Origin: Actinomycetes bacterium
GTDB taxonomy: Bacteria > Actinomycetota > Acidimicrobiia > Acidimicrobiales > RAAP-2
NCBI GenBank assembly: GCA_021799615.1
Contig: JAJZAC010000003.1
Span: 1-58,030, forward strand
Reading direction: 5' to 3'
DNA: 58,030 nt
This document shows, in pieces, positions 37,747 to 51,331 of this stretch (its first letter is position 1; the number at the start of each line of letters is the position of its first letter). The position numbers and the translations under genes are program-made. The notes below the pieces were generated by a model that saw only the letters and a list, made by a program, of their open reading frames with translations, made no database searches and was not told where the DNA came from.

Positions 37747-38247
37747 TCACGCCTCCCCGTCGCCGGTGGCGGCAGGTGCCTCGGTCGCCGCTGCGACCGG
37801 TGCGCCGGTGGAGGCCCCGGCCGGTGACGCTGCGCTCCTCGGTGCGCCGCCCCCCGGCTGCGACGGTCGATCCGGACGGTCCGACGAGCGGCCCTCGTCC
37901 TCCGAGCGGCGGCGCCCGCCCTGCCCGAATCCGCCGTCGCGACCACCACGGCCACGGCCGCCGGGACGCTCGGTGGTGGTCCGCTGGGTGTACGGCAGCA
38001 GCATGAGCTCGCGCGCCGTCTTGATGGCGAGCGCCACGTCACGCTGGTGCTGGGCACAGTTGCCCGACACCCGTCGAGCCCGGATCTTGCCCCGGTCGCT
38101 CATGTACTTGCGGAGCAGACCGACGTCCTTGTAGTCGACCCACTCGATCCGGTCCTTGCAGATCGCGCACGGCTTCTTCTTGATCCTCCGGCCCGCGTCC
38201 TTCGGGGCCCGGCGGCTGGTGGTGCCCCGGTCGTTGCTGCGTGCCAT
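37747..38247 (-). CDS. rpsR: 30S ribosomal protein S18 with long C-terminal tail
   Basis: A 166-residue protein in which residues 1-90 are an S18 core. It carries CAIC (about 27-30) and CAQH (about 64-67), the Cys/His set of the zinc-binding (C+) form. After LLPYTQRTT about 75 residues of Arg/Gly- then Ala/Pro/Ser-rich low-complexity sequence follow, roughly doubling the usual length of about 75-90 residues. The ATG overlaps the ssb stop (TGATG). S18 pairs with S6 (rpsF, same operon) on the 30S platform. Confidence 0.93.
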
Positions 38248-38702
38248 CAGAACGGCTCCTCGCTGTATCCGTACCCGCCGCCACCGGACTGCCCGGCCGT
38301 CGGCGGTGCGCCGCGCCCGCCACCCTCGGCGGGACCACGACGCTCGTTCTTCGTCACCTGGGCCGTGGCCCAGCGGATGCTGGGGCCGATCTCGTCGGCC
38401 ACCACCTCGATCTTCGACCGCTTGTCACCCTCGGGCGTCTCCCAGCTGCGCTGCTCCAGGCGCCCGGTCACGATGACTCGGGCTCCCCGGCTCAGGCTCT
38501 CGGCGGCGTTCTCGGCCATCTCCCGCCAGCAGACGACGTCGAAGAAGGAGGTCGCCTCCTCCCACTCCTGGGTCTGGCGGTTCTGCCACCGGCGGTTGAC
38601 GGCCAGCCCGAAGCTGGTCGTGGCCTGACCCGTGTTCGTGAAGCGGAGCTCCGGGTCACGGGTGACGTTGCCAACCAGGGTCACGGTGTTGCCGTTGGAC
38701 AT
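38247..38702 (-). CDS. ssb: Single-stranded DNA-binding protein
   Basis: A 151-residue SSB: OB fold at residues 1-110 ([33 protein letters not shown]), then a Gly-rich linker and the tip SEEPF, which recruits partner proteins. It protects single-stranded DNA in replication and repair. The operon order rpsF-ssb-rpsR-rplI is the common bacterial one. Confidence 0.95.
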
Positions 38703-38707
38703 GGCGT

Positions 38708-39043
38708 TCAGCCCTCCTCGGCGGCGGCGGACACGGCGGCACGCCGGCCGGCCACGTGGTCGGGGACGCGGATGACCTTGTGGCGGATCACCTCGTCGGC
38801 CAGGACGAACACCCGCTGCATGTCTGCCACCGCGTCCGGCTCCGCCGTCAGCTCGATGACCACGTAGTAGCCCTCGCGCTTCTTCGCCACCTCGTAGGCG
38901 AAGGCCCGCTTGCCCCAGCGCTGCACCTGGCCGACCACCCCGCCCTTGGCCCGCAGGGCGTCGAGTCCCCGCTCGAGGGCGGCGTTGACCGCGGCGTCGT
39001 CGGCCGCGGTATCGAAGATCACCATCGTCTCGTAGGGCCGCAC
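38708..39043 (-). CDS. rpsF: 30S ribosomal protein S6
   Basis: A 111-residue S6: MRPYETMVIFDTAADD at the N-terminus, with the conserved KRAFAYEVAKKREGYYVVIEL in the middle. It binds S18 and helps assemble the 30S platform. It starts at GTG with AGGAGGT nine bases upstream, a strong ribosome site. Its leader of about 100 bases carries a stable hairpin. Confidence 0.96.
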   Translation of the reverse strand: MRPYETMVIFDTAADDAAVNAALERGLDALRAKGGVVGQVQRWGKRAFAYEVAKKREGYYVVIELTAEPDAVADMQRVFVLADEVIRHKVIRVPDHVAGRRAAVSAAAEEG

Positions 39044-39064
39044 GTGCGGCTCACCTCCTCCGGA

Positions 39065-39085
39065 TCGGGCGCGAGCAGCGCCCGA
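39065..39085 (-). promoter_or_regulatory. rpsF leader hairpin
   Basis: TCGGGCGC (39065-39072) pairs with GCGCCCGA (39078-39085), an 8-bp stem with a 5-base loop, just upstream of the rpsF ribosome binding site. A -10 TAGAGT (39153-39148) gives a leader of about 100 bases. Some bacteria carry an S6:S18-binding autoregulatory RNA here. I could not verify the defining CCG bulge, so the role is only suggested. Confidence 0.35.
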
Positions 39086-39209
39086 GCCCCCGTGGGGGCA
39101 GGGTCTGTGCCGTCGCAGCCTCGGGCATGCCTCGGTGCGACCGGGACACTCTAGCCGCGCCGGCCGGCCCCGGTGGTCCCGGGGCCCGGGCCGGTGGGCG
39201 GCCGCACCG

Positions 39210-40028
39210 TCAGTGGTAGGTCTCGCTGTCGTCGGGGAAGGACCCGGCCCGGACGTCCGCCGCGAACCGGGACAGCGCGGCGACGGCCTCGTCTCCCAGG
39301 TCGGCGTACCGGCGGACGAACCGTGGCGGGGTCCGGTCGCCCAGGCCCAGGACGTCGTGGAACACCAGCACCTGCCCGTCGCAGCCGGGCCCGGCGCCGA
39401 TGCCGATCACCGGGACGTCCACCGTCTCGGTCACCCGGTCGCCGAGCGGGCCGGGGACGCCCTCGACCACCAGGGCGAAGCACCCGGCGGACACGATGGC
39501 CTTGGCGTCGGCCACCAACCCCTCGGCCGCCCCGTGGGACGTTCCCTGCACCCGGTAACCGCCCATGGCGTGGACGGACTGGGGCGTCAGCCCCAGGTGG
39601 CCCATGACCGGGATCTCCGCCGACACCAGCGCCTCGATCATCGGGACCCGGACCCGACCGCCCTCGAGCTTCACGGCCTGGGCACCGGCCCGGACCAACC
39701 GGGCGGCGTTGCGCACCGTGTCGGCCGCGTCGAGGTGGTAGCTCAGCCAGGGCAGGTCGGCCACCACCAGGGCGCCGGGGCGGGCACGGGCCACGGCCGC
39801 CGTGTGGTGGACCATGTCGTCCACCGTCACCTGGAGCGTGTCCTCGTAGCCGAGCACGTTGTTGGCCACCGAGTCGCCGACCAGGATGACGTCCACGCCG
39901 GCGGCGTCGGCGACCCGTGCGCCGGGTGCGTCGTAGGCGGTGACCATCACGATCGGCTCGGCGCCGCTGCGACGTTTGCGGGCGGCCAGCGACGGCACGG
40001 TCACCGGGACGGGACGGGTCTCGGGCAT
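39210..40028 (-). CDS. panB: 3-methyl-2-oxobutanoate hydroxymethyltransferase
   Basis: A 272-residue enzyme making ketopantoate from 2-oxoisovalerate with methylene-tetrahydrofolate, the first step toward pantothenate and CoA. It has MVTAYDAPGARVADAAGVDVILVGDS (about 25-50), the active-site Glu in VKLEGG (about 120), GHLGLTPQ (about 142) and GIGAGPGCDGQVLVFHD (about 205). AGGAGGTCCACC lies directly before the ATG. Its promoter has a -10 followed by a perfect 20-bp palindrome. Confidence 0.95.
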   Translation of the reverse strand: MPETRPVPVTVPSLAARKRRSGAEPIVMVTAYDAPGARVADAAGVDVILVGDSVANNVLGYEDTLQVTVDDMVHHTAAVARARPGALVVADLPWLSYHLDAADTVRNAARLVRAGAQAVKLEGGRVRVPMIEALVSAEIPVMGHLGLTPQSVHAMGGYRVQGTSHGAAEGLVADAKAIVSAGCFALVVEGVPGPLGDRVTETVDVPVIGIGAGPGCDGQVLVFHDVLGLGDRTPPRFVRRYADLGDEAVAALSRFAADVRAGSFPDDSETYH

Positions 40029-40094
40029 GGTGGACCTCCTGTTCGGCCGTCCAGCGCACGACGGCTGCCGGCGGCACCTGCGGGCGGGGCGCCC

Positions 40095-40126
40095 GGGAGC
40101 ACGTACGTGCTCCCTCGGAGATGGTA
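40095..40126 (-). promoter_or_regulatory. panB promoter with perfect 20-bp palindrome
   Basis: On the minus strand TACCAT (40126-40121) is followed after six bases by GGGAGCACGTACGTGCTCCC (40095-40114), a perfect 20-bp palindrome beginning near the expected transcription start. It can act as an operator for a dimeric repressor or as a stable hairpin at the mRNA 5' end. Confidence 0.65.
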
Positions 40127-40252
40127 CCGCCGCACCCCCGCCGGGGGAAGGGTGGGCGGCGGCCAGGCGCCGGTGGCAGACTCGGGCAACCGCGCCGGGA
40201 TCGCCGGGGGGACGCGGCGACGTGGGGAAGCGACCCGCCGAGGGGGGATGTC

Positions 40253-40795
40253 ATGGAGCTCCGAGGGATCAACCACCTGGCACTCGTGTGCAGCGACATG
40301 GCCCGCACCGTCGACTTCTACTCCGGGGTGCTCGGCATGCCCCTGGTGAAGACCATCGAGCTGCCGGCCGGGCTGGGCCAGCACTTCTTCTTCGACTGCG
40401 GCGGCGGCGACTGCCTGGCCTTCTTCTGGTTCCCCGACGCGCCACCCCCGGCGCCGGGGGTGGCGGCGCCGGCCGCCCGGCCCGATCGGGGCAGCCTGGT
40501 GAGCGCCATCGGGTCGATGAACCACGTCGCCTTCGCCGTCGATCCCGACCGCCTGGAGGAGTACCGCGAACGGCTGGTGGCCGCCGGCGTCTCCTGCACC
40601 GAGGTGGCGAACCACGACGACAGCGAGCTCGGGATCGCCGAACGGGTGCACCCGGGCGTGTTCATCCGCTCGGTCTACTTCCAGGATCCCGACGGGATCC
40701 TGCTCGAGCTGGCCTGCTGGACCCGCCCGCTCGGCTCCGGCGACGTCCACCACCTCCCGGCCACCGCCGCCGGCGCCGCCGGCGCCCGGAGCTGA
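40253..40795 (+). CDS. VOC-family (glyoxalase/bleomycin resistance) protein
   Basis: A 180-residue vicinal-oxygen-chelate protein: first half INHLALVCSDMARTVDFYSGVLGMPLV, second half MNHVAFAVD ... FIRSVYFQDPDGILLELACW. Metal ligands are probably His-8, His near 88 and Glu in LLELACW, so it is a likely dioxygenase, isomerase or lyase. AGGGGGGATGTC precedes the ATG. It is the first of four tightly linked genes (to 43436). Confidence 0.82.
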   Translation: MELRGINHLALVCSDMARTVDFYSGVLGMPLVKTIELPAGLGQHFFFDCGGGDCLAFFWFPDAPPPAPGVAAPAARPDRGSLVSAIGSMNHVAFAVDPDRLEEYRERLVAAGVSCTEVANHDDSELGIAERVHPGVFIRSVYFQDPDGILLELACWTRPLGSGDVHHLPATAAGAAGARS

Positions 40796-49517: not shown

Positions 49518-51331
49518 GCGGCCGCGGGCCGGTCCCGGAGGGCCCACCCGACCCCGACGACCGGGACCCCGGCATCGAGCACGGCAGCCTGACCGGGGCG
49601 ACCGTCGGGATGGCCGTCGGCACGGCCGCGTCCCGGGCCACCGGCGTGCTCCGGGTCTTCGCCCTCACCACCGCCCTCGGCGGGACCTCCTTCGCCGACG
49701 CGTACAACCTGGCCAACACCACGCCGAACATCGTCACCGACATCGTGGTCGGCGGCGTGCTGGCCGCCACCTTCGTCCCCGTCTTCGTGGACCGGCTGGC
49801 CACCAGGCGGGCCGCGGAGGCGTGGCGGGCCATCTCCGCGGTGACGACGGCCACCGTCATGCTGCTGGTCGTCGCCACCGTCGCCTTCTGGTTCGCCGCT
49901 CCGGCCATCATCTCGCTCTACACGGTGGCCAACCACGCCCCCGACGTCCGCCAGCAGCAGGCCATGGCCGTCACCCTGCTGCGGTGGTTCGTACCCCAAC
50001 TCACGTGCTACGGCCTCATCGCCCTGTTCAGCGCGCTCCTGAACGCCCGCCGCCGCTTCGCCGCCCCCATGTTCGTGGCCATCGCCAACAACCTGGTGGT
50101 CATCGTCGTCCTCCTGTGGTTCCACGCGATCCTGCCCCACCCGACCCTGTCGTCGGTGGCCGCCCACCACTCGGCGCTGGTCGTCCTCGCCTTCGGCACC
50201 ACCCTCGGCGTCGTCGCCCAGACCGCCCTGCTGGCACCCTCGCTGCGCCGGGCACGGCTGCACGTCCACTTCCGGTTCGAGCCGGGTCACGAAGCCATGC
50301 GGACGATCGTCCGCCTGGCCGGCTGGACCTTCGGGATCGTGGCCGCCAACCAGGTCGCGCTGGTCGTCATCCTGGCGCTGGCCGACGGGATCCCCGCCCC
50401 CGGATCGGTGTCCGCCTATTCGTACGCGTACACGTTCTTCCAGCTCCCCTTCGGCGTGGTGGCCGTGTCGGTGATGAGCGCCGTCACCCCGGTCCTGGCC
50501 GAACGATGGGCGGTCGGCGACGTGCACGGCTTCCGGCGCCGGATGGCCCAGGGACTCCGCTCCATGCTGGCCATCATCATCCCCTCGGCCGTCGGCATGC
50601 TCGTCCTCGCCCATCCCCTCATCCAGCTGGTGCTGGCGCACGGCGCCGAGTCCCACGCCGCCGCCGCCACCGTGGCGTCGACGCTGGCCATGTTCAGCCT
50701 GGGGCTGCCGGGCTTCTGCGTCTTCCTCTACGCGGTCCGGGTGCTCCAGGCCATGCAGGACACGCGCACGGCGTTCCTGCTCTACGCGGTGGAGAACGGG
50801 GTGAACGTCGTCACCGGGCTGGCTCTGGTCGGCCCGCTCGGGGTACGGGGCCTGGCCCTGTCCCTGTCCCTCGCCTACGTGGTCGCCGGCCTCGCGTCGT
50901 TCGCCGTACTGGCCGCCCGGTTGCACGGGATCGGTGCCGACACCCTGCGCGGGCCGCTACGGCGGGTGACGGTGGCCACGGTGGCCATGGCGATCGTCGC
51001 CCTCGTCGTGGTCAACCTCTCGGCGCAGTCGACCACCGTCGCCCTGGCGCTGCGGGTCGGATCGGCCATCGGCGCCGGCTCGCTCACCTACGTCGGGGTG
51101 GCGGCGCTGCTCGGCGCGCGCGCCGAGCACCGGCGCCACCGGAACCGGTCGGGCTCCCCGCCACCCGCGCCGCACGTCCCGTCCGGCGGCGCGGCGCTCA
51201 CGCGTGTCGAGCCGTTCCGTGACAGACTCGACACCGGCCGACCCGGCCCGTCGGTCCGTGTCCTCCGCCCCCCGGGGGAGGTCCCCGATGCCCGTCCCCC
51301 GGACCGGGGTGACGTCGAGACCGAGGAGTGA
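49514..51331 (+). CDS. murJ: Lipid II flippase MurJ (MviN family)
   Basis: A 605-residue membrane protein with 14 predicted TM helices (about residues 25-520) of the MOP superfamily. It has SRATGVLRVFALTTALGGTSFADAYNLANTTPN near the N-terminus and PGFCVFLYAVRVLQAMQDTRTAF (about 395). It moves lipid II across the membrane for peptidoglycan synthesis. A charged cytoplasmic tail of about 75 residues follows, but no pseudokinase domain as in mycobacterial Rv3910. ATGA overlap with the upstream gene couples their expression. Confidence 0.92.
   Translation: MSGRGPVPEGPPDPDDRDPGIEHGSLTGATVGMAVGTAASRATGVLRVFALTTALGGTSFADAYNLANTTPNIVTDIVVGGVLAATFVPVFVDRLATRRAAEAWRAISAVTTATVMLLVVATVAFWFAAPAIISLYTVANHAPDVRQQQAMAVTLLRWFVPQLTCYGLIALFSALLNARRRFAAPMFVAIANNLVVIVVLLWFHAILPHPTLSSVAAHHSALVVLAFGTTLGVVAQTALLAPSLRRARLHVHFRFEPGHEAMRTIVRLAGWTFGIVAANQVALVVILALADGIPAPGSVSAYSYAYTFFQLPFGVVAVSVMSAVTPVLAERWAVGDVHGFRRRMAQGLRSMLAIIIPSAVGMLVLAHPLIQLVLAHGAESHAAAATVASTLAMFSLGLPGFCVFLYAVRVLQAMQDTRTAFLLYAVENGVNVVTGLALVGPLGVRGLALSLSLAYVVAGLASFAVLAARLHGIGADTLRGPLRRVTVATVAMAIVALVVVNLSAQSTTVALALRVGSAIGAGSLTYVGVAALLGARAEHRRHRNRSGSPPPAPHVPSGGAALTRVEPFRDRLDTGRPGPSVRVLRPPGEVPDARPPDRGDVETEE

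Follow-up and report, generated by a model that had tools for sequence, protein, structure and literature searches.

A palindrome upstream of panB as the probable template of a 5' hairpin in a leader with a single pan-type RNA hairpin in Acidimicrobiales

We analysed a stretch of 58,030 nucleotides (the window), which has a GC content of 73% and carries panB, the gene for ketopantoate hydroxymethyltransferase, on its minus strand. The gene divergent from panB encodes a glyoxalase-family protein. The panB-rpsF-ssb neighbourhood (38247-40028) recurs, with rpsF found at 60 and ssb at 49 of 87 partly redundant loci. The leader and start of rpsF (39032-39087, minus strand) gave a guanidine-III riboswitch match of 20.4 bits (cut-off 36, E 0.012), most likely due to chance, and a hairpin-forming stretch before rpsF that recurs in relatives, as judged by eye, could be a ribosomal-protein leader. 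The following features were identified at panB:

39210-40028, minus strand: panB, ketopantoate hydroxymethyltransferase (PF02548, E 1.5e-105)
40035-40040, minus strand: Shine-Dalgarno sequence (SD) AGGAGG, 6 nt downstream of the pan hairpin
40047-40074, minus strand: single hairpin of the pan type, CCG CCGGC A GCC-loop-GCGCUGG A CGG, containing two bulged A (model R1, 45.9 bits, E 1.1e-8; covariation; topology as in RF01749)
40082-40094, minus strand: predicted second hairpin H2, GGGCG-CCC-CGCCC
40095-40114, minus strand: palindrome, as putative 5'-terminal RNA hairpin H1, GGGAGCAC-GUAC-GUGCUCCC
40121-40126, minus strand: -10-like element TACCAT
40144-40149, minus strand: TTCCCC in the place of a -35 element, with a 17-nt spacer to TACCAT

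The window sequence confirmed, with exact letters and coordinates, what the original prediction had described, namely a perfect 20-bp palindrome six bases after TACCAT. In minus-strand order, TACCAT (ATGGTA at 40121-40126) is followed by six bases (40115-40120) and then by the palindrome GGGAGCACGTACGTGCTCCC (40095-40114), which lies 66 nt from the panB start (40028, minus strand). When the 224-bp intergenic stretch was shuffled 5000 times with dinucleotides preserved, a comparable palindrome appeared in 10 shuffles. Across the window we counted three perfect palindromes of at least 20 bp (shuffle mean 0.43; three were reached in 0 out of 40 shuffles). The other two, at 40440-40465 (26 bp) and 51108-51129 (22 bp), both overlap long ORFs; the 26-bp palindrome, within an ORF neighbouring the panB region, exceeds the panB palindrome in length. 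The panB palindrome is thus unusual for its location, but it is not the only one of the window.

A consensus scan called no sigma-70-like site upstream of panB. By alignment, TTCCCC-N17-TACCAT of the window corresponded to TTTCCC-N17-TACGAT in the same-genus genome G001, and in relatives TANNNT elements immediately preceded the leader hairpins. From these sequences we infer that panB transcription would start at the palindrome. The palindrome had been placed at the panB +1 and called ideal for a repressor; the placement at about +1 held up, while the repressor operator did not.

As originally proposed, a dimeric repressor bound to the palindrome at +1 would block panB transcription. Its perfect symmetry, its location, its rarity among the intergenic shuffles and the retention of GAGCA-N6-TGCTC in the same-genus genome speak for such an operator. 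Against it, the palindrome occurs once in its own genome within three mismatches, which also answers the suggestion to look for it elsewhere, and G001 gave zero matches at the same threshold. Within the family, 22 out of 150 genomes had matches (up to 3 mismatches), all but the window's own at 2-3 mismatches, and a reversed control was commoner, matching 35 of the 150 genomes by our own count. Arm sequence and loop length also differ among relatives. The sequence was therefore conserved neither before orthologous panB genes, as had been asked of related genomes, nor in a regulon, and a palindrome regulon was rejected given the single genomic occurrence and the commoner reversed control. We consider the operator unlikely, though one private to the window's genome or genus is still conceivable. 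Control of the divergent glyoxalase-family gene was also rejected, as that neighbour occurred at 4 out of 87 partly redundant loci, every one of them in the two same-genus genomes.

The pan-type hairpin lies between the palindrome and the SD. Its 5' side consists of 3 bp, 5 bp, a bulged A and an upper stem, and its 3' side of 5 bp, a bulged A and 3 bp. The pattern CCGCCGGCAGCC-loop-GCGCTGGACGG, or a near variant, was found upstream in 18 out of 30 fetched panB loci, and model R1 was built from 17 of those 18 sequences, with L015 omitted as a duplicate. Among 17 panB upstream regions fetched regardless of the motif, 10 had the pattern, which was also seen in three further regions fetched as R1 matches. 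One locus of the same order without a pattern match (L290) could be read by eye as TCG CCTGG A GCC ... GGC CCGGG A CGA, with other pairs.

In the window's genome, the next-best R1 match scored 22.8 bits, against 45.9 bits for the pan hairpin. R1 matched 191 out of 397 genomes of the order (taken as Acidimicrobiales) at E<=1e-4, and 38 out of 296 genomes of the phylum at E<=0.01. In the family, the hairpin was present in 23 out of 172 genomes and 5 out of 21 genera. Among the matches listed in an exact-pattern scan, many of the named records that showed the core pattern carried the name Acidimicrobiales or Acidimicrobiaceae. The family and phylum searches yielded 59 loci; panB adjoined the hairpin in 29 of them and not in the other 30. 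All 29 panB-adjoining loci had E<=6.8e-6, and only one of the 30 others (L077) scored as well. Outside the order, L077 is the one strong match of R1 (37.4 bits) with no panB nearby. The hairpin preceded panB in 89 out of 109 further loci, including two in which the gene is truncated or broken (L175 and L196), and in all 30 loci of weaker hits. Among the remainder of the 109, L114 ends before panB could be recognised and was counted neither way, and the 19 not before panB came from among the matches listed by the exact-pattern scan, with titles naming other bacteria and one archaeon.

Six genomes of the order had two matches; the second was inspected in five, the exception being G623. It corresponded to a further panB in G647, G658 and G775 (in the last, the first codons at the contig end). 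The second matches of G673 and G554 were without panB and look like chance; the idea that pan hairpins of the order also precede other genes was thus rejected. The two panB contigs of G647 (loci L302 and L307) possibly reflect a mixed assembly; each carries a pan hairpin of its own, and one of these hairpins is in the long-leader form. Locus L174 appears to be the identical contig to L302.

We then compared the hairpins for compensatory changes. In 38 hairpins hand-picked for variety (L262, L265, L268, L270, L273-L275, L284-L286 and L290 were omitted), 94.3% of the cells pair, and 10 cells were changed on both sides, against a shuffle mean of 1.9 (10 reached in 0 out of 500 shuffles). The double changes fell in four pairs, a number reached by 13 out of 500 shuffles. 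When no hand-picking was applied, 188 out of 205 panB loci gave a candidate, and the arms formed 23 distinct sets. In these, 97.8% of cells paired and 9 were changed on both sides (mean 1.6; 9 reached in 0 out of 500 shuffles); the double changes fell in three pairs (three reached by 50 out of 500). The pairing percentages lean in favour of the hairpin, since models or patterns of the hairpin itself served to collect the loci, and the constancy of the bulged A is partly due to selection, since the collecting patterns demanded both. To judge from these alignments, the pan hairpin shows compensatory changes and behaves as an RNA.

The leader set was drawn from 206 loci, of which 139 had a relaxed-pattern hairpin before panB; 113 were left after we dropped duplicates and those with less than 120 nt upstream. 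The pan stem was the computed optimum in 107 of these 113 leaders; in the window's genome, an alternative fold in which the SD region is paired was computed to be 3.2 kcal/mol more stable. In the 108 leaders with a recognised SD, the SD began 0-10 nt after the pan hairpin (median 3). A TANNNT element ended 6-10 nt before the pan hairpin in 74 of the 113 distinct leaders, so that pan itself would start at about +1 there. The distance was 36-93 nt in 23 leaders of the window's family, and the 16 other leaders, including L174, had TANNNT elsewhere or absent.

The alignment of the H1/H2 region was too divergent, and fold statistics were used instead, on 24 long leaders (the 23 family loci and L174). 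Each leader's TANNNT was taken as its -10; L063 had two candidates and the choice was made by eye. In 23 of the 24 leaders, a hairpin began at the predicted 5' end, against 6.8 expected from shuffles, and 19 leaders had a second hairpin beside it, against 6.3 expected. A hand-chosen subset of 12 leaders gave nine against 3.3 expected (P 6e-4). The stretch between TANNNT and pan also folded better than shuffles (mean z -1.14, with -2.77 for the window's own leader and -0.13 for an upstream control; P 9e-4). The P values of the hairpin counts are generous, given that their criterion was set after the folds were seen and that the leaders are related. Across genera, the arms in the place of H1 vary (GCACA/UGUGC, AGUAC/GUGCU, AGUGC/GUACU, ACCGGG/CCCGGU), as do the loops, while the same-genus genome, one of two that represent the window's genus, has largely kept the arms of H1 and H2, with changed loops. 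The hairpins of relatives have a bulge, shorter arms or other loops, and the perfect symmetry of H1 looks like a private state.

The palindrome could instead have no function of its own, having arisen by chance in GC-rich DNA, with the pan hairpin as the sole working element of the leader. That three such palindromes occur in the window, two of them overlapping long ORFs, and that the 74 leaders of the order with pan at about +1 do without H1 and H2 would agree with this. The excess of 5'-terminal hairpins in the long leaders and the retention of the arms in the same-genus genome speak against it, and we regard it as quite improbable. Finally, H1 as a diverged second pan copy, making the leader a tandem array like most known pan RNAs (PMC2864571, in its available text), recalls the GGCAG at the beginning of H1 in several relatives, which by eye resembles part of the pan stem, but was rejected as highly improbable, with R1 at E<=10 recovering the pan hairpin at each of the 23 family loci and H1 at no locus, and H1 being devoid of the topology with two bulged A.

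We also examined the relation of the hairpin to the known pan motif, RF01749, which the available text of Weinberg et al. 2010 (PMC2864571) proposes as a likely protein-binding RNA. RF01749 did not match the window, nor did it exceed its cut-off in any of 20 searched genomes of the order (one match, at E 6.5), and Rfam families across the region gave chance-level matches only. In a control scan of two panB loci, RF01749 matched Listeria at 64.3 bits, with the same 3-5-A topology, and had no match in Pusillibacter. The reverse search, with model R2, missed the Listeria pan, so that topology, gene context and bridging forms are the grounds for the kinship. At E<=0.01, RF01749 matched 4 out of 246 genomes of the phylum, one over the cut-off, and another scan at E<=0.1 found only that one.

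Bridging forms were found in other Actinomycetota, one over the RF01749 cut-off (L308) and three below it (L309-L311). L308 precedes panB, as does the hairpin of L312, from another order of the class. In L309 and L311, panB lies further downstream, beyond an ORF, which in L309 encodes a DUF2520/Rossmann protein; in L310, panB was not found. The order in L309 is pan, terminator, DUF2520/Rossmann gene and panB. No terminator between pan and the next gene was found by scan in L308 or Listeria. We compared eight hairpins, delimited by eye (the window's own, L312, L308, L309, L310, L311 and two from Listeria), and all 10 counted pairs were standard in all eight. Identity with the window's pairs was 10, 9, 7, 6, 6, 5, 3 and 2 out of 10, respectively, and the pairs changed on both sides numbered 0, 1, 3, 3, 4, 3, 6 and 7. 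By this comparison, the window's hairpin appears to be a previously unrecognised single form of the known pan motif, missed by the Rfam model. Our literature search, with subscription journals largely outside its coverage, found, among the papers listed, none on pan RNA in Acidimicrobiales or on a pan ligand or protein. RF01749 or the pan RNA motif is mentioned in the available parts of PMC5670726, PMC4342826 and PMC4634765, and the available part of PMC11487621 contained no RNA motif.

The palindrome is not conserved and a varying hairpin recurs at its place; it is therefore best read as H1 of the panB leader. We propose, with a probability of about 0.68, that the palindrome is the template of the 5' hairpin of panB mRNA, in a leader composed of H1, H2, pan and SD that would be subject to pan-bound translational control, with H1 and H2 in a protective or spacing role. 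Sequence comparison shows how this leader is laid out, and that the pan hairpin covaries and lies against the SD. The 5' UTR would run from the promoter through H1, H2, the single pan-type hairpin with two bulged A and the SD to panB. When pantothenate or CoA is plentiful, the pan hairpin would be bound, probably by a protein, and the occupied hairpin would hinder the ribosome at the adjacent SD. No terminator was found by scan in the window's panB leader, so that pan occupancy would most simply act on ribosome binding. H1 and H2, which would be an addition seen in the window's family, may protect the 5' end and/or set the spacing or add contacts. The putative parts of this scheme are the control of translation, the ligand or protein involved and the function of the palindrome itself.

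More broadly, we suggest tentatively, at somewhat less than even odds, that the pan hairpin is one old RNA site with two kinds of output in Actinomycetota. In some lineages it would be linked to a terminator; in Acidimicrobiales it would act as a 5'-terminal, SD-adjacent translational operator for panB, to which one family would have added two front hairpins, the first being the palindrome, as a control or stability module. The single pan form through much of the order suggests control of vitamin B5 synthesis there at the RNA level, and a minimal single-hairpin pan between start site and SD may be close to the smallest natural setting for finding its binder.

Some strong stem-loops at the 5' end of an mRNA stabilise transcripts, as in the ompA leader of E. 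coli. H1 would likewise be a strong hairpin at the predicted 5' end, but unlike the ompA-type stem-loops it precedes a pan RNA, and a stabilising role for it is putative. RF01749 and the window's pan hairpin both have a stem that is broken by two bulged A, one per strand, and divided into the same segments of 3 and 5 bp, and both are found upstream of pantothenate synthesis genes (here panB). They differ in that the window's type is single, whereas the known pan is mostly tandem (the Rfam model, of 92 positions, has the tandem form). The window's type is also GC-rich, lies against the SD and scores below the RF01749 gathering cut-off; in 74 of the 113 leaders it begins at about +1. In the window, unlike the RF01749 type, it is preceded by two other hairpins.
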